Of a DNA stretch of 64,000 nucleotides, positions 3,496 to 47,361 are shown piece after piece. The DNA is from a virus: IMG/VR virus record IMGVR_UViG_3300046694_000136, positions 62,001 through 126,000 of that record. The stretch is one strand, 5' to 3'. The notes under the pieces were generated by a model. It made no database searches. It was not told the origin of the DNA and saw nothing but the letters and a program-made list of their open reading frames with translations. Position 1 is the stretch's first letter; the number at the start of each line of letters is the position of its first letter. Position numbers and translations under genes: made by a program.

Positions 3496-4203
3496 TTATC
3501 TGAGTTCTTGTGCAATACGGATACCAGTAACCGTCGCTTTCCCTACCGAGTTAACAAGCCCACGGAGATCGTTGAGAAGAGCGCCGGTGAAAACGTCATC
3601 GAGTTCTTCAACAGGGATCACGTTACCGGTAACAATGTTCCGCAAAGCAGTGAGCTTACCGGCCAGGCATTTCGTGATGAGGGAGCAGCGCTGACGATCA
3701 AACGAGGCAACGACCGAAACGCTAAGCAGTGGGTCGTAACCAAGGGCTTTGAATCCGGCGAAGACTTCTTCACCAATGTTCTTCCCGCACCAGGTCTCGG
3801 TATTAAGACCGCTCACCTTGAGCATTCTCATATCCAACAAGACACTGCTGCCTTCTGGCGCCTTGATGAAGGCGGAGGTTGGCATCGCGGTGGTAGCAAC
3901 GTGAGCGTGGTAAATCTTCCCTTCCACCTCAAAGGAAACCATCAGGGCATTTACCCGCATCGCGCTTACGTCGAGCTCGTCCATTACTCCCCACGGACGC
4001 TGGCCAGGAACTTGGCAAAGCGCGAAGTAGTTAGGAATGTCGACAGGTACCGTCAGAAACTGGCTATGGTGACCTTTACGACCGAAAGGATCGCCTTTCG
4101 AGTACTCGACCGCTAACGGCGCAGCCAGAACCGGGGAAACAAAGAACTTTGCAGTGTCGGTATTTTCTTCGTAAACTGGATACGCGCGGGTAATGAATTC
4201 CAT
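3496..4203 (-). CDS. Uncharacterised protein in minus-strand structural cluster
   Basis: 235 aa. The frame extends further upstream to 4287 inside the neighbouring gene, but the ATG at 4203 has the ribosome site AGGAAAG 5-6 bases before it and begins a sensible protein (MEFITRAYPVYEEN), so this start is preferred. No family is recognised and no membrane segment is present. Eight bases separate it from the stop of the 4212-5681 gene, indicating an operon. Confidence 0.6.
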   Translation of the reverse strand: MEFITRAYPVYEENTDTAKFFVSPVLAAPLAVEYSKGDPFGRKGHHSQFLTVPVDIPNYFALCQVPGQRPWGVMDELDVSAMRVNALMVSFEVEGKIYHAHVATTAMPTSAFIKAPEGSSVLLDMRMLKVSGLNTETWCGKNIGEEVFAGFKALGYDPLLSVSVVASFDRQRCSLITKCLAGKLTALRNIVTGNVIPVEELDDVFTGALLNDLRGLVNSVGKATVTGIRIAQELR

Positions 4204-17807: not shown

Positions 17808-17900
17808 TAGTACGAATCGAAGATATAAATGTGTGTAGGCATACACTGTGCGATTCTGCTAACAGTCACCCTTTCTTAAGAAAAGATGGAGTTATACCTT

Positions 17901-19886
17901 ATGGCCGTTCAACAAAACCGCAAAGGCGCGGGCAGCAATTCCTGGGATGGTAAAAATGGCAACGCCGCAGAGTTCTCCGCTCTGTCGGAACTCTTCCATA
18001 CCCCTTCCATGTCGTCCGACAACCGCCAGTTGCCGGAAGTTGATGAGGTGATCGAGATCCTCAAGAAGGGCTACACTGCGATGAGTGAATCCACCATCCA
18101 GCCTGCCCAACGCGCAATCATCCCGACTGTCGACAAAGTGTCGCCTGTCATCAGCTCCACCCTGCCGGGTCTGGTAATGCACCGCCTGGTCGGCCAGAGC
18201 GTCTGGGTCATGCTGGTACTGTTCTCCAACAAGGACAACGCCATCGCGACCGAAACCGTTCAAGTGCTTCAGCCTATGGGCATGCCGCACAAGACCTCGG
18301 TCCTGCTGACCCCGACCAACTACTTCACCCACGAGCTGGTCGACAACCTGAAGAAGCACTTCAAGGGCGTCCTGGAAAACGAAGGCCTGAAAGGCGAAGT
18401 CGAGATCATCAACCTGATGACCGAAGACTTGGAAATGCTGCAACACTCCCAGGCCGGTGAGCCGAAAGAGCGTCCACAGCGCATCGCCAACTACCTGAAA
18501 GGCGAGTGGGAAACCGCGGTGTTCTGCAAACTGTCCTCGGAGTATCCGAAGCACAAGCAGACTCTGCCTTCGCCGTTCAAAGATCCTGATGCACCGTACG
18601 GCAAAGACGGCTGGGCCGAAGCACGCGTTACCGCAATCGACGGCAAGGTCTCCCGCGCCGGCACGCTGATGCCGTCCAACATGGAACTGGTGATTTCGAC
18701 CACCAACAACCCGAACAGCAGCAACAACAACCAGAACAACCCGAACTCGAAAGGGATCGTGCGCGCTCTGGCTACTGTTCAGTTGTCGGCCATCAGTTAC
18801 CAAATGCACATGCAGAACATCGCGGCCATCTCGCAGGCCGGCGGTCAAGCCGATGCTATCCAGGCGTTCCTGGGCATCAACGGCGGCATGTACATGAACG
18901 GCTACCGTCCGCTGCACCCGGTCATCACTCTCGACCACGCCAACGCGGAAGAGATGATGAACTACAACAACGGCCTGTTCCCGCACTACTACGCGCTGTT
19001 CGCGCTGATGTGCACCAACACCGACTACATCTTCACTGAACCACTGCGTCGCGCCAACGTCGGCTCCCGGGGCAACCTGAGCTCCTTCGAACCGCGCATC
19101 GAACAGCTGGTTGCTCAGGCGTTCACCGGTGTTCGTCCAGTAATGGACGACAAGACCATCCTGGACACCGAAGCAGTCAACAAGTGGATCCACCAGAACA
19201 TCTCGCCGAACGCTCTGTTCCGCAGCAACGTGATCCTGGGCGGCCTGTCGTCCCCGGTGAACAAGCACCTGGAAGTTCTGTCGGATCCGGTCCTGGCCAA
19301 CCGTCAGTCGGCGGTACAAACCATGATCGCGGTAATGGACGCAATCTCCAAAGGTCGTTTCTCGCAGATCGTTGCGGAAAACGTCAAGTCTGGCAAAGGC
19401 TGGAAGCCAGGCGATGTTGCGCTGCACCGCACGAAGATGATCGCGGTGAACGGTCTCGCGAAGAACCCACAAGGTCGCGAGCTGAACACCCTGGAAGTCG
19501 ACGAAATGTACCTCGGTACTCACAAAGGTAAGGCTGGGCTGCAACAGTCCATGAACTACCTGAGCGTGCTGTACGGCACCAACAACGAAGAAGTTCGTTC
19601 GCGTTGCCAGAAGCTGCGTATCGAAATGACCACCGGTCTGTTCGATGGTCACGTGCACATCAACAACTTCGGTTACTCCTGCGTCTGGGATCCGCATCTG
19701 ATGGCTGTTATCGGTGCCGCTCTGTCGGAAATCGGTACGCTGAACGTTGCGAACACCTACAGCTCGATGCGTCCGAACAACATGGCGTTCATGCCAATGG
19801 CTGGTCTGCAAACCGTTACGTCGGTCGGCAACAGCAACAACATGAACCTCCTGGGTGGTTTCGGTAACGGCGGGATCTGGGGCTAA
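17901..19886 (+). CDS. chmA: Chimallin-like major nuclear shell protein
   Basis: 661 aa from the ATG at 17901, which has GGAG nine bases before it; an in-frame ATG at 17886 lacks a ribosome site. ChmA (phiKZ gp54, 201phi2-1 gp105, about 600-630 aa) forms the square lattice enclosing phage DNA. Support: position directly before the RNAP beta' N-terminal gene, as gp54-gp55 in phiKZ; matching length; early promoter; very strong codon bias fitting an abundant protein; and flexible polar N- and C-terminal segments. A low-complexity Asn/Ser insert lies at about 274-284 (NNPNSSNNNQNNPNS). Ends GFGNGGIWG, nearly the same as the 29462-30976 product. Identification rests on context and general features; no structural comparison was possible. 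Confidence 0.75.
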   Translation: MAVQQNRKGAGSNSWDGKNGNAAEFSALSELFHTPSMSSDNRQLPEVDEVIEILKKGYTAMSESTIQPAQRAIIPTVDKVSPVISSTLPGLVMHRLVGQSVWVMLVLFSNKDNAIATETVQVLQPMGMPHKTSVLLTPTNYFTHELVDNLKKHFKGVLENEGLKGEVEIINLMTEDLEMLQHSQAGEPKERPQRIANYLKGEWETAVFCKLSSEYPKHKQTLPSPFKDPDAPYGKDGWAEARVTAIDGKVSRAGTLMPSNMELVISTTNNPNSSNNNQNNPNSKGIVRALATVQLSAISYQMHMQNIAAISQAGGQADAIQAFLGINGGMYMNGYRPLHPVITLDHANAEEMMNYNNGLFPHYYALFALMCTNTDYIFTEPLRRANVGSRGNLSSFEPRIEQLVAQAFTGVRPVMDDKTILDTEAVNKWIHQNISPNALFRSNVILGGLSSPVNKHLEVLSDPVLANRQSAVQTMIAVMDAISKGRFSQIVAENVKSGKGWKPGDVALHRTKMIAVNGLAKNPQGRELNTLEVDEMYLGTHKGKAGLQQSMNYLSVLYGTNNEEVRSRCQKLRIEMTTGLFDGHVHINNFGYSCVWDPHLMAVIGAALSEIGTLNVANTYSSMRPNNMAFMPMAGLQTVTSVGNSNNMNLLGGFGNGGIWG

Positions 19887-37834: not shown

Positions 37835-38644
37835 GTGTTTCTGGAATACAGAAGCAATATTGAATGGGACTCTGTTATCCAAGAGATTATGGAAGAGATC
37901 CTTGACAATGCATTTCGTTATGGCGATGGATTTGGAGGCTTTAGTCTATTCGGGGGTACTCCTAGTTGGGCTAACCCTGTTTGGATAGAAGACCGAGTTC
38001 GTGGCCTGTTGTTTGACGAAGACGGTTGGCCTCGCCGGAGTGTCGATGATGGTGAGTATTGGGAGTTCCTTAGGGCTCCTAAGACTGTGGTGAATAGGTA
38101 CACCGCAATCATCACCGATATCACGGAGAGACTTATTGTCGACAATGCGCTTCTGCTTAATTCCCTGTATTCACGCTATCTAGTAGAGAGCACAGAATAC
38201 ACCAGAACCGTTCGAAACCACATCATAATCAAGCTCACTGGGTGGGACAAAATGGCTAAGCAATCTTTTGCACCAGTTCCGAAGAACGTGAAATCCGTTA
38301 TCATCAGACTCCCGAGCTCGCCGACGGACAATGTTGACAAACAGTTCATGTTACGACTGCTGGTGGTCGAGCGCATTCGTGCGTACATCGACGTGCTGGA
38401 TTTTAAAGCACTCCAGGAGGAACTCCTCCAAAAACGTATCACCATTCCGGTGTACTACGAAACGGACGAACAAAAGAAAGACTACTTCGAGTCGGAGGCG
38501 ATGGAGATCAGAAGTCTCTACGACCGTATCGAGCTGGATCCTTTGTTCAAAGAAGACTTCATGTCCCTCAAACCCTACCAAGGCCACAAGTGGGACCTCA
38601 AGTCCACCACTGAACACGCCATCCTCCTGTCTATCGAGGTTTAA
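37835..38644 (+). CDS. Two-part protein: paralogue of previous gene joined to a second domain
   Basis: 269 aa from GTG 37835, but no ribosome site precedes it. Similarity to the preceding protein extends upstream of this codon (VTNQPVFLE against LTSQTLVLL), so the true start may be a nonstandard codon near 37802-37820. Residues 1-~135 match the previous protein. At ~139 (base 38251) MAKQSFAPVPKNVKS begins what looks like a separate protein, preceded by GGGTGGG, a possible internal start. It may be an in-frame fusion by loss of a stop codon. No function assigned. Confidence 0.55.
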   Translation: MFLEYRSNIEWDSVIQEIMEEILDNAFRYGDGFGGFSLFGGTPSWANPVWIEDRVRGLLFDEDGWPRRSVDDGEYWEFLRAPKTVVNRYTAIITDITERLIVDNALLLNSLYSRYLVESTEYTRTVRNHIIIKLTGWDKMAKQSFAPVPKNVKSVIIRLPSSPTDNVDKQFMLRLLVVERIRAYIDVLDFKALQEELLQKRITIPVYYETDEQKKDYFESEAMEIRSLYDRIELDPLFKEDFMSLKPYQGHKWDLKSTTEHAILLSIEV

Positions 38645-38645
38645 T

Positions 38646-39209
38646 GTGGAATTCCTTATTGTCAAGCTGGACCCGGATACTCGTGATGAACTGTATTCGG
38701 ACATCAACCCCAATCTCGTTGACTTCGTTCTGCTGGAAGCCATCACCCTCGCCGGTAAAGAGATGATCAACAACCCTGATGCCATGATCGAAGCCTCAGG
38801 TGATGAAGTCTATCACCTGAACGATCCTGACATCGACATGGAAGACAGTATCCGCGCAATCCTCGACGTGATGGTGGAAACCGACAAACTCGCCGGCGTC
38901 GACACCACTGCTGAAGGTTACGACATCGAAGAGAAGTACCCGTTCATTTCGGACAAACTGGTACTGGCGCTGTCGTCGATCACCTTTGCTAACAAAGTTG
39001 GCGAAGTGATCATGTTCCACAACGTTATCTCTAATCCGAAGTTTGCCCAAGGCGTACACGTCAAAGGCACTCACCTGGGTAACGTCGCTACACTGTCGTT
39101 GACACCACTGGCTGAAGCTGCTCAAGCGGCGGTTGCGGTATCGAAAGCGGTAGAGATGGTCAAAGAGCAACTCATCAATGACCTGAACTCCCACATCAAG
39201 AAAGGCTGA
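38646..39209 (+). CDS. Uncharacterised 187-aa protein
   Basis: GTG at 38646 with GAGG seven bases before is chosen; the frame is open far upstream inside the previous gene, but there the sequence is a Ser/Arg-rich shadow. Protein MEFLIVKLDPDTRDELYSD; acidic first half, Ala/Val-rich helical end (LAEAAQAAVAVSKAVEMV). Good codon bias. Ends at a strong bidirectional terminator. Function unknown. Confidence 0.6.
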   Translation: MEFLIVKLDPDTRDELYSDINPNLVDFVLLEAITLAGKEMINNPDAMIEASGDEVYHLNDPDIDMEDSIRAILDVMVETDKLAGVDTTAEGYDIEEKYPFISDKLVLALSSITFANKVGEVIMFHNVISNPKFAQGVHVKGTHLGNVATLSLTPLAEAAQAAVAVSKAVEMVKEQLINDLNSHIKKG

Positions 39210-41515: not shown

Positions 41516-42367
41516 ATGGCAACTAAAAAACAAAGCATGAAAGCCAAAAAAGACACTCGCAAGAAGACGAAAGCGAAGGTTCGGGTTAAATCATCGCAGA
41601 GCAGTGTCTTCGGTCAACGTAGCGCCGGTGGCTTCCACGACAAACGCGTCAGCATCTACGACCTGATCAACGACGTCAAAAGCGGCGCCACTCACATCAA
41701 GTCCAAACTGGCCAAAGGCGAGATTCCTGAAGTAGGGATCGATCGTCTGGACTTCCTGAAAGGTATTCAGGAAACCATGGGCCAAGTGATCAAGATGCAC
41801 GGCGGTATCGCGGTGTACATGCTGCTGGCTGAGAACGAAAGCCGCTTCCAGATCACTCCTGAGAACGCCGAGCGTATCGAGGGCTACGAGCGTTCCGTTG
41901 TTCGCTTTGTAGAAAACGTTGATGCCGTGGTTCTGCTGGACCAAGCCAAGAAACTGCCAGAAGATTACATCGAACTGGTTATCGACATGGCCGACGTACT
42001 GCGTGACCTGATGGTTATCCAGCACATTCCTACTTACGAGATGCTCAAGCGTAAGGAACAGGAAATCAACCGCTACATCACCGAACACCTGCCAACCGGT
42101 ATGGACGTCTTCGAATACACCCGTGGTCTCCACGAAGAGCGTATCAAGCAGGTCGGTCCTCTGTACGTGACCACTGAAGGCGTCAGCGCCAAAGAGATCG
42201 CCGACATGGTCCTGATGACTCAGGATCTCATGAACGAGAATGGTGAAGACGTTGTTGTCTCCGTTGACACCAGCAACATCAAGCCGGACGAGCATCCTGA
42301 CGTCGAGCCGGTTAAAGATATCCCGCAAGACCCTATTACCGAACAACGTATCAAGGACGCTCAATAA
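41516..42367 (+). CDS. Uncharacterised 283-aa protein with basic N-terminus
   Basis: ATG at 41516. Residues 1-28 are strongly basic (KKQSMKAKKDTRKKTKAKVR), suited to nucleic-acid contact. The rest is helical and acidic, with a disordered Asp/Pro-rich tail. First gene of the late plus-strand block; stop overlaps the next start. Good codon bias. A virion or DNA-packaging role is plausible but unproven. Confidence 0.6.
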   Translation: MATKKQSMKAKKDTRKKTKAKVRVKSSQSSVFGQRSAGGFHDKRVSIYDLINDVKSGATHIKSKLAKGEIPEVGIDRLDFLKGIQETMGQVIKMHGGIAVYMLLAENESRFQITPENAERIEGYERSVVRFVENVDAVVLLDQAKKLPEDYIELVIDMADVLRDLMVIQHIPTYEMLKRKEQEINRYITEHLPTGMDVFEYTRGLHEERIKQVGPLYVTTEGVSAKEIADMVLMTQDLMNENGEDVVVSVDTSNIKPDEHPDVEPVKDIPQDPITEQRIKDAQ

Positions 42368-44082
42368 TGGCTGACGAAAACAAACCGACCGAACCCACGG
42401 AACAGTCCGCTCTGGCCAGCGCTGTAGCAAGCGCCATTCCTCCGGCACCCAAGGTCTTCAGTTACGGCGATACCCACACCCCCGAGAACACCCCACTGAA
42501 GGTTCCGGTAAACTCTCTGCCTGAATCGGTAGGTAAGCTGGAAGACAGCGACGTCACTCGTGGTCAGGGCTTCACCACGGTGTACATCGGTAACAGTAAG
42601 GAAGACTACACTGCTGTTCAGGAACTGGTTTCCATCTGGTTCTCGATCAGCAGCATCCGTAACGCTTCCAAAGGCAACCGTATCAACCAGAGCATGCTCA
42701 ACGCTGCCATGGCTGAATGGAAACAGTACTGTGATGACAACTTCCCGGGCGTTACTTACGACGAGATGGAAGCGCGTGCGGCGGATATGTACCGCTACCT
42801 CCAGAACACGTCGGACCCGATCATGGTCAAGACCCGCATGATGCTGGAAGATGTTTCCAACGTCTACAAGGCCTCTGACACCATCGTGGTGGGTGATATC
42901 ACCGGCATGATCCCGAGTGCTACGGCTAAACCCAACAGCCTGTCTGAAGAGATGGAGCGTGGCGCTTCCCGCGGTAACTCCAGTCCGTACCTGTACTCGG
43001 TAGGTCTGCGTAACAGCTTCTGTAAGTTCCAGTTCTCCCGTGGTCACAAGACCGATGCGGCGATCATGATCAACGAGATCAACGCGACCATTCGTGGTTA
43101 CGTTCGTACCGTCGGCGGTAATTCTCTGGTGTTGTCGACCATTGCCGGTTACCGTGCTGTCTGGAACTGGCTGGTTCCTTATATCACCAGCTCCAGTGTT
43201 GACGGCGTTGCTGACTTCAACGATCTGGCTCGGGTTATCCGTTTCCGTGACATGGAAGTTATCCTGGCTGCGCTGCTGGCGTCCTTCGAAGACGATGAAG
43301 CCAACATGGACCTGCGTTGCTTCAACATGGGCTGTGACTGGAGCTCGTACGAGAAGATCAACCCTGCGCTGCTGGTTCGCGCTCGTCCGGTAGCTCATAC
43401 CGAACAAGAGCTGGCTGTTCTGGGTAACATCTTCAACGGTACTGCCCGCTACAACATCCGTCAGGTTCTGGACTTGATCGACAATGCCACCTACGGCATC
43501 GAAGATAACTACCTGTACAACGAGAAGCAGACCATCCGCTTGACTATGGGTTCGACTTCGTTGGCTGAGGCCTTCGCTGCGCTGGACTACATGGTTACTC
43601 AGGTGGATCCGCAGATCGCCAGTGCACGTAGCACCCTGACCGACCAGGCTGCTCTGGAAGCTCAGATCGGTATCATCCTGAGCGGTGTTGGTGGTTGCGA
43701 GTTCCTGCATTGGGTTAAAGAGTTCGCTCTGCTGCCTGAACCGGGTACCGAAGGCGAGCCGAAGATCTTCAAGCGTCGTGACTCTGACCAGCTCGAGTTC
43801 AACAAAGGCCTGCGTGGCGTGTTGAAGGTAGACCCTTACCTCGACAACCAAGTTACCCGGTTCGCGTACACCGTTGGTCCGTACATGACCAAGACCTTTA
43901 TTGGTCTGCGTAACTGCAAGTGCCCGAAATGTGGCAAGGGTGCTGAAGAAGTGAACGGTCAAGCTCGCAACTTGGGCTACACCCCGATCGATGTGTTCAT
44001 GACTTTTTTTACCCATACCCAGTTCATGTTGGTGCGTCAAGCGGAAGCGAAACAGCGAGTCGAGCTCGCAGCCCGCTCTTAA
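42367..44082 (+). CDS. Probable virion/tail assembly protein with C-terminal zinc motif
   Basis: 571 aa, AAGGA before ATG. Disordered Pro/Thr-rich N-terminus (to ~40), long helical body, and a C-terminal zinc knuckle-like CKCPKCG (about 518-524). Twenty-four codons before the stop lies T TTT TTT (44004-44010), a canonical -1 slippery heptamer in phase. The -1 frame then runs open to 44579. The gene may therefore produce both a 571-aa and a longer fusion protein, as tail assembly chaperone genes of many tailed phages do. Family not recognised. Confidence 0.6.
   Translation: MADENKPTEPTEQSALASAVASAIPPAPKVFSYGDTHTPENTPLKVPVNSLPESVGKLEDSDVTRGQGFTTVYIGNSKEDYTAVQELVSIWFSISSIRNASKGNRINQSMLNAAMAEWKQYCDDNFPGVTYDEMEARAADMYRYLQNTSDPIMVKTRMMLEDVSNVYKASDTIVVGDITGMIPSATAKPNSLSEEMERGASRGNSSPYLYSVGLRNSFCKFQFSRGHKTDAAIMINEINATIRGYVRTVGGNSLVLSTIAGYRAVWNWLVPYITSSSVDGVADFNDLARVIRFRDMEVILAALLASFEDDEANMDLRCFNMGCDWSSYEKINPALLVRARPVAHTEQELAVLGNIFNGTARYNIRQVLDLIDNATYGIEDNYLYNEKQTIRLTMGSTSLAEAFAALDYMVTQVDPQIASARSTLTDQAALEAQIGIILSGVGGCEFLHWVKEFALLPEPGTEGEPKIFKRRDSDQLEFNKGLRGVLKVDPYLDNQVTRFAYTVGPYMTKTFIGLRNCKCPKCGKGAEEVNGQARNLGYTPIDVFMTFFTHTQFMLVRQAEAKQRVELAARS
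44004..44010 (+). promoter_or_regulatory. Candidate -1 ribosomal frameshift site (T TTT TTT)
   Basis: Seven T residues placed so that the zero-frame codons are ACT-TTT-TTT, matching the X XXY YYZ rule. Slippage leads into the frame of the 44178-44579 reading frame. A downstream stem GCGAG-TCGAG-CTCGC (44055-44069) is rather far away; no closer stimulator was recognised. Confidence 0.5.
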
Positions 44083-44177
44083 TCACGGGGCAGGCTTTCC
44101 ATAACGATCAGTACAGGCAAGCGTTCGCTAACTTAGCGGACATCGATCAGTCTATCTTCACGACTGAACAGCTTGCC

Positions 44178-44579
44178 TTGAACAAAGATCTGTTATACGA
44201 CATGAATATGGGTTATATCGACGTCAAGCGAATTCGACCCGGTCATGGTGCTCTCTATTACGAGGCCGAGAATGAGTACAATCATCCTTGGTCAATGGAA
44301 TACGTGATGGAACAGTATCATTTCCATAAGCTGCACGAGTTCATGACGTTGACGGAATACCTGAACACACCTGCCTTTATGGTTAAGCGAATCCTTAAAG
44401 GCAGTGCTAAAGGCAAAGCTGATCGCGCTAAATGGGATGAGGAGAAAAGGAAGGAAGCTGAGCGGCTCAAGAAGGGTCAGTTCAAGGACACTTCCAATCC
44501 CAACATGCCTATTGAAGATGAGCAACTTGCTGAAGCATGGAAACTTGCCAATACAGAAATGGGAGGCAAGAACCAATAA
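44178..44579 (+). CDS. Downstream reading frame, probable frameshift extension of 42367-44082
   Basis: 133 aa if begun at TTG 44178, but no ribosome site precedes this codon or the ATGs at 44202/44208. The frame is open back past 44010 with protein-like sequence before the TTG (GQAFHNDQYRQAFANLADID) and no ATG or GTG. This favours synthesis as the C-terminal part of a -1 frameshift product. C-terminal half is Lys/Glu-rich and helical. Ends before a perfect terminator (44591). If translated alone it would need an unrecognised start. Confidence 0.55.
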   Translation: MNKDLLYDMNMGYIDVKRIRPGHGALYYEAENEYNHPWSMEYVMEQYHFHKLHEFMTLTEYLNTPAFMVKRILKGSAKGKADRAKWDEEKRKEAERLKKGQFKDTSNPNMPIEDEQLAEAWKLANTEMGGKNQ

Positions 44580-44590
44580 GCTTATATCTC

Positions 44591-44612
44591 AGGCCTCCCC
44601 AAAGGGAGGCCT
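44591..44612 (+). terminator. Terminator
   Basis: AGGCCTCCC-CAAA-GGGAGGCCT, perfect 9-bp stem, followed by GGGTATTTTATGG. Confidence 0.7.
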
Positions 44613-44674
44613 GGGTATTTTATGGTGTACACCCATGTAGCACTTTATTTTCTATTCAGGAAGGGGCCCCTTTC

Positions 44675-45296: not shown

Positions 45297-46307
45297 ATGA
45301 GTCAGGAAAACGCAATGCAAGACGATATCGTTATCGACGAGAACGAAGAGTTCGTCGCACCTGAATCCAGCCACATCGAGCTGGTCTTCCAAGCCCTCGG
45401 TGACACTGTCAATGCCGTTGCTGGTACCGAAGGTCTGACCACCGCTCAACTGTACTTCCACGGCGTTCTGAACGCGTCTGGCCAGCTGAGCTACACCGAC
45501 TCGGTCTCCGGTGCTGAAGGCTTCTTCGCCAACGTGAAAGAAGGTGCTTCCAAAGCCATCGCTTACATCAAGAAGATGGTCAAGGAAATCTGGGGCTTCT
45601 TCTTCAAGAAGCAAGGTCCGGAAGAAGCCAAGGCTGTTAAGGAAGCTGTTGCTGGTACCGCTGCCGACCTCGCCAACGTCGAGAAAGTCAAATCCGGCCT
45701 GAAGAGCGCCGCTGGTTCCGACTCGAAAGAGCTGGTTGAACACATCAGTAAGGCGAGCACCATCGCTGAACTGAACACCGTGTCGAAAGACGTGGCGAAG
45801 AAGAACACCAAGGCTCAGCAAGGTCTGGTCGTCAAGATCAACCAACTGGTTGAATCGCTGGAAGCCGAAGTCAAGCTGGCTGAAGAAGTCGAAACCGAAG
45901 CCAAGAAGTCCGGCGAAGCAGGTTACACCGCTTGGGCATCGGGCGTGAAAGGCGGCGTGTCGGGTACTCAGTCCCTGATCACCACCCTGAAAGGTATTCG
46001 CGATCTGGCTGACCTGAAGGCTGCTGAAGACACCCTCGGTGCACTGAAGTCTCACGTCGAGATCATCAGCCGCGCTCTGGAAGCCTCCGGCGGTACCGAA
46101 TCCCGCGTTCAGGGCATGATCGACACCCTGTCCACCCTGGATGGCAACAACTCCGCCAGCGACGAACAGAAGAAGCAAGGCGACGACAACCTGAAAGCTC
46201 TCCAGCTTTTCGTTAAGTCGGCTGCTCGCTACTCTGCTCTCCTGAAGCGCACCCTTTCCCATATGAAATCTGTCAACACTGCCACCGGCAAAGTGTTCGG
46301 CGTTTAA
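45297..46307 (+). CDS. Inner-head/ejected virion protein, paralogue A, predicted propeptide
   Basis: 336 aa, AAGGA before ATG. Acidic N-terminal region, AVAGTE (40-45), then SGAE-GFF (71-77). After this comes an amphipathic helix KAIAYIKKMVKEIWGFFFKK (about 87-106) and a long Ala/Lys/Glu helical body. The phiKZ prohead protease cleaves after S/A/G-x-E, so cleavage after Glu45 or Glu74 is predicted. Paralogue of the next gene. Resembles the phiKZ gp93-gp95 type of inner-body proteins in arrangement. Very strong codon bias implies many copies per virion. Confidence 0.65.
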   Translation: MSQENAMQDDIVIDENEEFVAPESSHIELVFQALGDTVNAVAGTEGLTTAQLYFHGVLNASGQLSYTDSVSGAEGFFANVKEGASKAIAYIKKMVKEIWGFFFKKQGPEEAKAVKEAVAGTAADLANVEKVKSGLKSAAGSDSKELVEHISKASTIAELNTVSKDVAKKNTKAQQGLVVKINQLVESLEAEVKLAEEVETEAKKSGEAGYTAWASGVKGGVSGTQSLITTLKGIRDLADLKAAEDTLGALKSHVEIISRALEASGGTESRVQGMIDTLSTLDGNNSASDEQKKQGDDNLKALQLFVKSAARYSALLKRTLSHMKSVNTATGKVFGV

Positions 46308-46317
46308 GGAGTCCTCG

Positions 46318-47361
46318 ATGGACGAAGTAATGAGCGAAGACGAACTGAGCATGGAAGTGGCTATCCCTGCTCCGGAACACATCGAAACCATCCTCGACGG
46401 CGTCAGCGACTCCCTCGACCAGGTGGCGGGTACCGAAAGCTTGACCAACGCACAGGTTTACCTGGGTTCGGTTCTGGCTGCCAACGGTTACATCCGCAAG
46501 AACCAGGTTGGTCAGGAAGGCTTCTTGGCGAAAGCCGGTGAAGGTTTCAAAGCCGCTGTTGCCTACGTCAAGAAGATGTTCACCAACCTCTGGGACTTCT
46601 TCTTCAAGCGTGACGCACCGAAGCTGGTAGCTGAGGCCAAGGAAGAGGTCAAGGCTGCTGAAGACGCCCTCAAGGTCATCGAGTCCGGCGGTAGCAACGA
46701 GAAAGAAACCACTGAAGCGCTGACCAACATGCGCAAAGTGATTCTGGCTCTGAGCCACGAACCTGACACCAACAAGTCTGCTCTGGATCAGATCCTGAAA
46801 GAAGCGGACGAAGCGATGAAGGGCGATCAAGCCAAGAAGAAAGCTGCCGTTCTCATGATCGGTCGTGAACTTCCGAAGCTGAACAAGCGCTCGACTACCG
46901 CCATGAAGAAACGTGTCGACGACATGGTTCGTGTCCTGGTTGCGACCGAGAAGGCTGTCGACGCTGTTATCGACAAAGGCGAAGGTGTCAACGCTGCTTC
47001 GATCGAAAGGGTCTACGGCGCCAAGCTGAAGTCTGAGAAAGGTGAAATCGCTGGTGTCCTTGCCAAGTTCCAAAAGGCCAGTAGCGAAACCACTCCGGCT
47101 AACCTGAAGGACTGCTACACGTACACCTCGCAATCCATTGAAGCGGCAAGCCGTGCGCACACATCGCTGAAAGAGGGCGAGACCTCCATCAAGGCTGAAA
47201 TCGCCAAGCTGGAAGCCGGTGAGGAGTCTACTCTCAAGAGTAGTGTTCAAGACCTCAAACGTCTGCTGAGTTCGGTTACCTCTTTGGCCCAAGTGACCAA
47301 GGAACTGCTGGGCTCCAGCCGTCAGTTGCTGAAAACCGGTAACAAGGCTTTCGGCTACTAA
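46318..47361 (+). CDS. Inner-head/ejected virion protein, paralogue B
   Basis: 347 aa, AAGGAG before ATG. QVAGTE (35-40) and VGQE-GFL (64-70), then KAAVAYVKKMFTNLWDFFFK (about 77-96), matching paralogue A residue by residue in spacing. The rest is helical and Lys/Glu/Ala-rich. The N-terminal ~40 residues are acidic, like a scaffold-type propeptide. Predicted to be processed by the head protease and packed in the capsid. Convergent with the DNA polymerase exonuclease gene across a perfect terminator. Confidence 0.65.
   Translation: MDEVMSEDELSMEVAIPAPEHIETILDGVSDSLDQVAGTESLTNAQVYLGSVLAANGYIRKNQVGQEGFLAKAGEGFKAAVAYVKKMFTNLWDFFFKRDAPKLVAEAKEEVKAAEDALKVIESGGSNEKETTEALTNMRKVILALSHEPDTNKSALDQILKEADEAMKGDQAKKKAAVLMIGRELPKLNKRSTTAMKKRVDDMVRVLVATEKAVDAVIDKGEGVNAASIERVYGAKLKSEKGEIAGVLAKFQKASSETTPANLKDCYTYTSQSIEAASRAHTSLKEGETSIKAEIAKLEAGEESTLKSSVQDLKRLLSSVTSLAQVTKELLGSSRQLLKTGNKAFGY

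Follow-up and report, generated by a model that had tools for sequence, protein, structure and literature searches.

Evidence for an unannotated programmed −1 frameshift conserved in phiKZ-like jumbo phages, with a possible link to the T4 hub assembly chaperones

Results

A slippery heptamer near the end of a phiKZ gp77-like gene

Near its 3′ end, a conserved gene of phages related to phiKZ and EL carries an in-phase slippery heptamer that is followed by a long open −1 frame. We hold with high confidence that this is a genuine programmed −1 ribosomal frameshift, although slippage itself is inferred and no translation or mass-spectrometry data are available, and it is very likely a family-wide trait of the phiKZ/EL-like jumbo phages. 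The resulting two-form product probably helps to build the phage tail, a role that is untested.

The site was identified in a stretch of 64,000 nucleotides, referred to here as the window, which belongs to a virus record of 234,503 bases. Positions 17886-19886 of the window match the nuclear-shell family phrog_4795 (E 1.8e-101); the presence of a nuclear-shell gene in a record of this size identifies the source as a jumbo phage that forms a nucleus, as phiKZ and EL do. The gene, the frameshift site, the −1 frame and the hairpin after it all lie on the plus strand. The zero-frame open reading frame (ORF) encodes 571 aa (42367-44082), falls in phrog_4585 and is the ortholog of phiKZ gp77 and EL PPEV_gp047; its ATG overlaps the stop codon of the preceding 283-aa gene (TAATG). 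The heptamer T_TTT_TTT (44004-44010) stands in the X_XXY_YYZ phase within the context ATG ACT TTT TTT ACC, where its first T closes the ACT codon. It is separated from the TAA of the 571-aa ORF by 23 sense codons, and the initial annotation, exact in its coordinates and phase, had counted a 24th and placed the site 24 codons before the stop. The −1 frame, given there as open for about 190 codons, is open from 43947, directly after a TGA, and its extension from the slip site (44010-44579; phrog_19747 and phrog_24181) comprises 189 codons and a TAA at 44577-44579. Translated from 44010 it begins YPYPVHVGASSG, and the predicted fusion of 737 aa (548 + 189) reads MLSTFFYFGGLEVK across the junction.

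Two pairs of cysteines, C318-x4-C323 (43318-43335) and C519-P-K-C522 (43921-43932), precede the slip site, the second of them 25 residues ahead of its Phe-Phe. All four cysteines occupy invariant columns in two alignments and are candidate zinc ligands, in keeping with the earlier description of an unusually long zero-frame protein with a zinc motif. Just 3′ of the −1 frame stop lies a terminator-like hairpin with a T tail (44588-44615), which is consistent with both frames ending a single transcription unit; this is a consensus match only, and such matches were no commoner than chance (3 found versus 3.9 expected in shuffles). Two further arrangements were observed in the window. The genes at 45297-46307 and 46318-47361 are adjacent paralogues, both phrog_21850, where EL has one gene and RisingSun apparently none; and the ORFs at 37835-38644 (269 aa, GTG) and 38331-39209 (292 aa, ATG) overlap on the same strand by more than 300 nt in different frames.

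Conservation of the site and of the open −1 frame

Relatives of the zero-frame protein were found in 69 phage records, and in 208 with phiKZ gp77 as the query, the two sets overlapping. The comparison covered 50 loci, namely the window, 20 named phages, phiKZ, 19 non-duplicate IMG/VR loci and nine further loci (phiEaH2, Special G, Moabite, XC31, PhiPA3, 201phi2-1, SPN3US (L066) and two loci designated L058 and L059). The pattern with which a subset of the loci was collected demanded the first Phe, so that this subset is slightly biased towards it; tblastn retrieved the named phages without this pattern. An in-phase site was present at all 50 loci, as T_TTT_TTN in 47 and G_TTT_TTT in three (25 TTTTTTT, 21 TTTTTTC, 1 TTTTTTA and 3 GTTTTTT). 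The codon pair TTT TTY was found in the same phase throughout, save for TTT TTA in Kosakonia phage Kc263, where the second Phe is replaced by Leu yet the heptamer remains slippery (T_TTT_TTA). At every locus the −1 frame was open for 154-190 codons, and the distance from the heptamer to the zero-frame stop was 21-24 codons in 42 of the 50 and 8-16 or 37 codons in the rest.

These loci span 19 lineages with less than 50% identity, including phiKZ gp77, EL, OBP, SPN3US and 201phi2-1. Outside the site, Phe in these genes is encoded by TTC 829 times versus 263 for TTT; given Phe-Phe and the codon usage of each gene, the chance of finding the site over the 19 lineages is ~1e-21, an estimate that assumes the lineages to be independent. 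Conservation of the heptamer and of the open −1 frame, which the initial annotation had named as a check on its programmed frameshift reading, thus supports that reading across the phiKZ-like and EL-like phages.

Two features of the data set count against this interpretation. At the G_TTT_TTT sites of PhiPA3 and the two IMG/VR relatives L058 and L059, a −1 shift is possible only with a P-site mismatch at the first position; G_TTT_TTT is an unusual −1 slip site. SEGD1 (L062, KU726251) has a single continuous ORF of 795 aa spanning both frames. At ~3900-3960 of this locus, immediately 5′ of a T run that is itself unaltered, there is a divergent patch of ~25 nt with a net gain of 1 nt. Among the SPN3US-like records read, SEGD1 alone has such a patch joining both frames, and 21 sister records match the SPN3US sequence over the entire 301-nt query in one piece at no less than 97.7%. 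The 795-aa ORF could be either a true in-frame fusion or an assembly artefact. Sequencing error as the source of the split frames was discounted on their recurrence in the 50 loci, with SEGD1 as the lone exception.

Both frames appear to be under selection

As judged from substitution patterns, the −1 frame in close relatives is under purifying selection ahead of any usable start codon. At 44083-44177 the zero frame has already stopped and the −1 frame has yet to meet a start codon, so that coding is possible in the −1 frame alone. Comparison of the window with one close relative (L022) over this part gave a dN of 0.083 and a dS of 0.707, and for every pair among four close relatives pN before the first start was far below pS. 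In tblastn, the −1 frame matches EL, RisingSun and Miami from residue 1 onwards, at the slip site, and the residues P2 and P4 directly after the slip are invariant in an alignment of 21 sequences. The protein-like sequence that the initial annotation had perceived before any start codon is borne out by the low pN and the invariant prolines.

The overlap (44011-44082) is dual-coding, with a 23-codon C-terminal helix in the zero frame and a [YRH]PxP segment in the −1 frame. In seven loci forming a second group, synonymous difference in the zero frame was ~0.1-0.25 across the overlap, against a dS of mostly 0.35-0.83 in the gene body; a lowered synonymous rate in the overlap is expected if both frames are constrained. 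Zero-frame body values for the pairs window-L025, window-L024, L022-L025 and L022-L024 were ignored owing to gap misalignment. The C-terminal end of the zero-frame protein was predicted to be helical (pLDDT in the 70s to 80s) and, on this ground, both products seem to be kept.

Predicted structure points to a possible hub assembly factor

The function of the zero-frame family phrog_4585 is unknown. Pfam and PHROG searches with either frame returned families of unknown function only and no chaperone family, and PDB sequence searches gave nothing useful. The AlphaFold model of the zero-frame protein had a mean pLDDT of 83 and a pTM of 0.84; that of the extension was helical and weaker (pLDDT 64, pTM 0.36). 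In a Foldseek search of BFVD with the zero-frame model, the top matches were proteins of phiKZ-like phages, a 'Baseplate protein' of ctLnO19 and some unnamed entries, followed by two myovirus models without a named function and then by entries named 'Baseplate hub assembly protein, bacteriophage T4-like' (E 1.7e-3 and 2.0e-3, ranging to 2.5e-3; probability 1.00, TM by target 0.47-0.51). Weaker baseplate or hub matches, SP-15 among them, were found further down. A fold search of the PDB gave no match at E 0.001; the VIA-align rows contained a common helical hairpin (residues 76-143) and, for the extension, a weak match to the UTP12 complex. The sister record pEa_SNUABM_43 bears the annotation 'putative baseplate hub assembly protein'. 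The zero-frame ortholog RisingSun gp53 (L002 1762-3576) is labelled a 'putative ZipA-like cell division protein', for which no support was found.

From these models we infer, with moderate confidence, that the zero-frame protein acts as an assembly chaperone for the baseplate hub or tape measure, of the T4 gp26/gp51 type. A search for the usual tube and tape-measure location around the gene did not find it; the neighbours are a phiKZ gp80-like RNA polymerase β′ subunit, a gp79-like head protein, a DNA polymerase, and paralogous and uncharacterised genes. The gene thus adjoins the polymerase subunit, the head protein and the paralogous proteins, and the frameshift could be real while the protein serves as an assembly factor for the head, the internal body or the virion RNA polymerase, a reading that we think unlikely without being able to set it aside. 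Foldseek instead favours T4-type hub assembly proteins, and tail chaperones recurrently show this layout, in which the gene for a non-virion protein has a −1 shift towards its 3′ end. In the phiKZ record, gp77 and gp76.4 lack the 'structural' note that gp79-gp81 have.

Comparison with T4 gp26 and gp51

In T4, gp26 and gp51 are listed as chaperones in the assembly of the hub (PMC3004832). Both belong to PF12322 (T4_baseplate) and align strongly with each other in hhalign (97%, 1.3e-11), gp51 amounting to gp26 with a further ~46 aa at the C terminus, which start from the helix that closes gp26 with EFFELL. The two T4 proteins share two cysteine sites, one of them a CPxC-type knuckle, and then a terminal helix containing either Phe-Phe or Phe-Lys; the order in the phiKZ-like proteins is similar, with a Cys pair, a CPxC knuckle and the Phe-Phe helix that holds the frameshift site. 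The gp26/gp51 pair thus resembles a short and an extended form, for which T4 uses two genes instead.

The alignment of the phiKZ-like with the T4 gp26/gp51 profiles in hhalign scored 37.4, against a maximum of 25.6 in 60 shuffles, and its probability dropped to 0.6% once the CPxC zinc knuckle was masked. Comparison of the −1 extension with the gp51 extension was at noise level in the profile search. A search against PF12322 yielded no match, with A1 members at E 1 and eight phiKZ-group proteins at E 10, and no solved structure of T4 gp26 or gp51 was found by sequence search. Since the sequence link to T4 is confined to the zinc knuckle, the correspondence with gp26/gp51 is a hypothesis only. 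We therefore offer only tentatively, and short of an even degree of belief, the full proposal that nucleus-forming jumbo phages share an unannotated −1 frameshift yielding a short and an extended hub chaperone of the gp26/gp51 type.

Comparison with frameshifting tail chaperones

The arrangement resembles lambda G/G-T, and the equivalent systems of P2 and further long-tailed phages, in having an in-phase heptamer in the 3′-terminal part of a late gene, a modest −1 extension, a second ORF without a usable start, and two forms that are both apparently maintained. It differs in several respects. The phiKZ-like zero-frame protein is long (527-686 aa) and has four conserved cysteines, whereas the lambda-type chaperone is short; its gene lies outside any evident tube or tape-measure cluster; and it has no sequence match to any chaperone family. 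The slippery heptamer of lambda is G-rich, unlike T_TTT_TTN. The tail-assembly-chaperone layout proposed in the initial annotation is plausible, though a matter of inference: its support is the structural resemblance to T4-type hub assembly proteins, and the usual order of tube, chaperone and tape-measure genes was not seen. Chaperones of the lambda G/GT type are not found in virions, and T4 is a noted exception to G-T frameshifting (PMC5009743).

A second comparison is offered by phage G, likewise a giant, in which translational frameshifting was predicted to link two late ORFs, those of the tail chaperonins gp181/gp182. Their products were unseen in virions, and this pair differs in keeping the usual order of sheath, chaperonin and tape measure (PMC8570332). 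In the text read, the phage G pair is not treated as related to the phiKZ-like genes.

Expression of the −1 frame

Under programmed frameshifting, most ribosomes would complete the 571-aa zero-frame protein, and a fraction would slip back by one base at AC T TTT TTT, with both Phe tRNAs re-pairing, and read on in the −1 frame to give the 737-aa fusion. In the fusion, the final 23 zero-frame residues would be swapped for a mostly helical domain of 189 aa. As with lambda gpG and gpGT, the ratio of short to long form would be fixed. Folding single sequences of 50, 75 and 100 nt revealed no conserved downstream RNA structure, the z-scores being scattered about zero, and no upstream SD-like stimulator was obvious by eye. 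Some natural −1 frameshift sites need no stimulatory element. As no stimulator was found, the efficiency of frameshifting cannot be guessed.

The homopolymer run at the junction could also allow the phage RNA polymerase to add one U, so that the fusion would be made from edited mRNA, and the slippage habits of the phage's own multisubunit RNA polymerases are unknown. We regard this as very unlikely, for the T runs are merely 6-7 long, 22 of the 50 sites read TTTTTTC or TTTTTTA and three read GTTTTTT; bacterial polymerases usually need longer runs to slip.

Start codons were also considered as a source of the second product. The first possible start of the −1 frame in the window, a TTG at 44178, lies 56 codons past the slip (anti-SD +0.4 kcal/mol) and the first ATG is codon 64 (−0.6 kcal/mol), compared with −5.1 kcal/mol at the start of the 571-aa gene, in line with the lack of a ribosome site reported in the initial annotation. 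Across the 50 loci, the first ATG, GTG or TTG of the −1 frame lies between 4 and 85 codons beyond the slip, and the median anti-SD is −0.6 kcal/mol versus −5.6 at the zero-frame gene start, and only four of these −1 frame starts reach −6 kcal/mol. The records read list two genes here, the second CDS starting variously with ATG, GTG or TTG; in phiKZ, the annotated gp76.4 of 80 aa (L054 5443-5685) is the C-terminal part of the 165-aa −1 frame that follows gp77. A separate second gene with its own ATG and ribosome site in relatives would, according to the initial annotation, refute frameshifting; though records annotate separate genes, a consistent ATG with a ribosome site was found in no relative read, and an independent start for the −1 frame was discounted on the start-codon and SD evidence. 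That the −1 frame is a separate gene, expressed from its own start or by termination-reinitiation as the public records have it and with a ribosome site as placed by Miami's annotators, is scarcely credible, given that selection on the protein sets in at the slip site, as much as 85 codons ahead of the first start, that start positions and types vary, that SD signals are weak, and that the conserved in-phase heptamer would be left unexplained.

Discussion

Programmed −1 frameshifting at this site most likely makes phiKZ gp77/gp76.4 and their orthologs one gene with two products, against the two-gene annotation of the records read. No earlier report linking phiKZ-like phages with this frameshift was found in the open-access literature; subscription papers and supplements were not covered. 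The phiKZ-like phages are model giant phages, known for their nucleus and virion RNA polymerases and as therapy candidates, and their tail-assembly factors are largely unknown. The present analysis corrects the two-gene annotations and puts forward a candidate chaperone for the hub or tape measure, and the set of 50 loci can be used as an annotation rule for the phiKZ-like group. It also suggests, in a form open to testing, why T4 does without the frameshift common to most long-tailed phages. If the correspondence with gp26 and gp51 is true, T4 would have the same two-form chaperone as paralogous genes, 26 for the short form and 51 for the extended one, and the frameshift and the two-gene layout would both be solutions to one problem of tail length or hub assembly.
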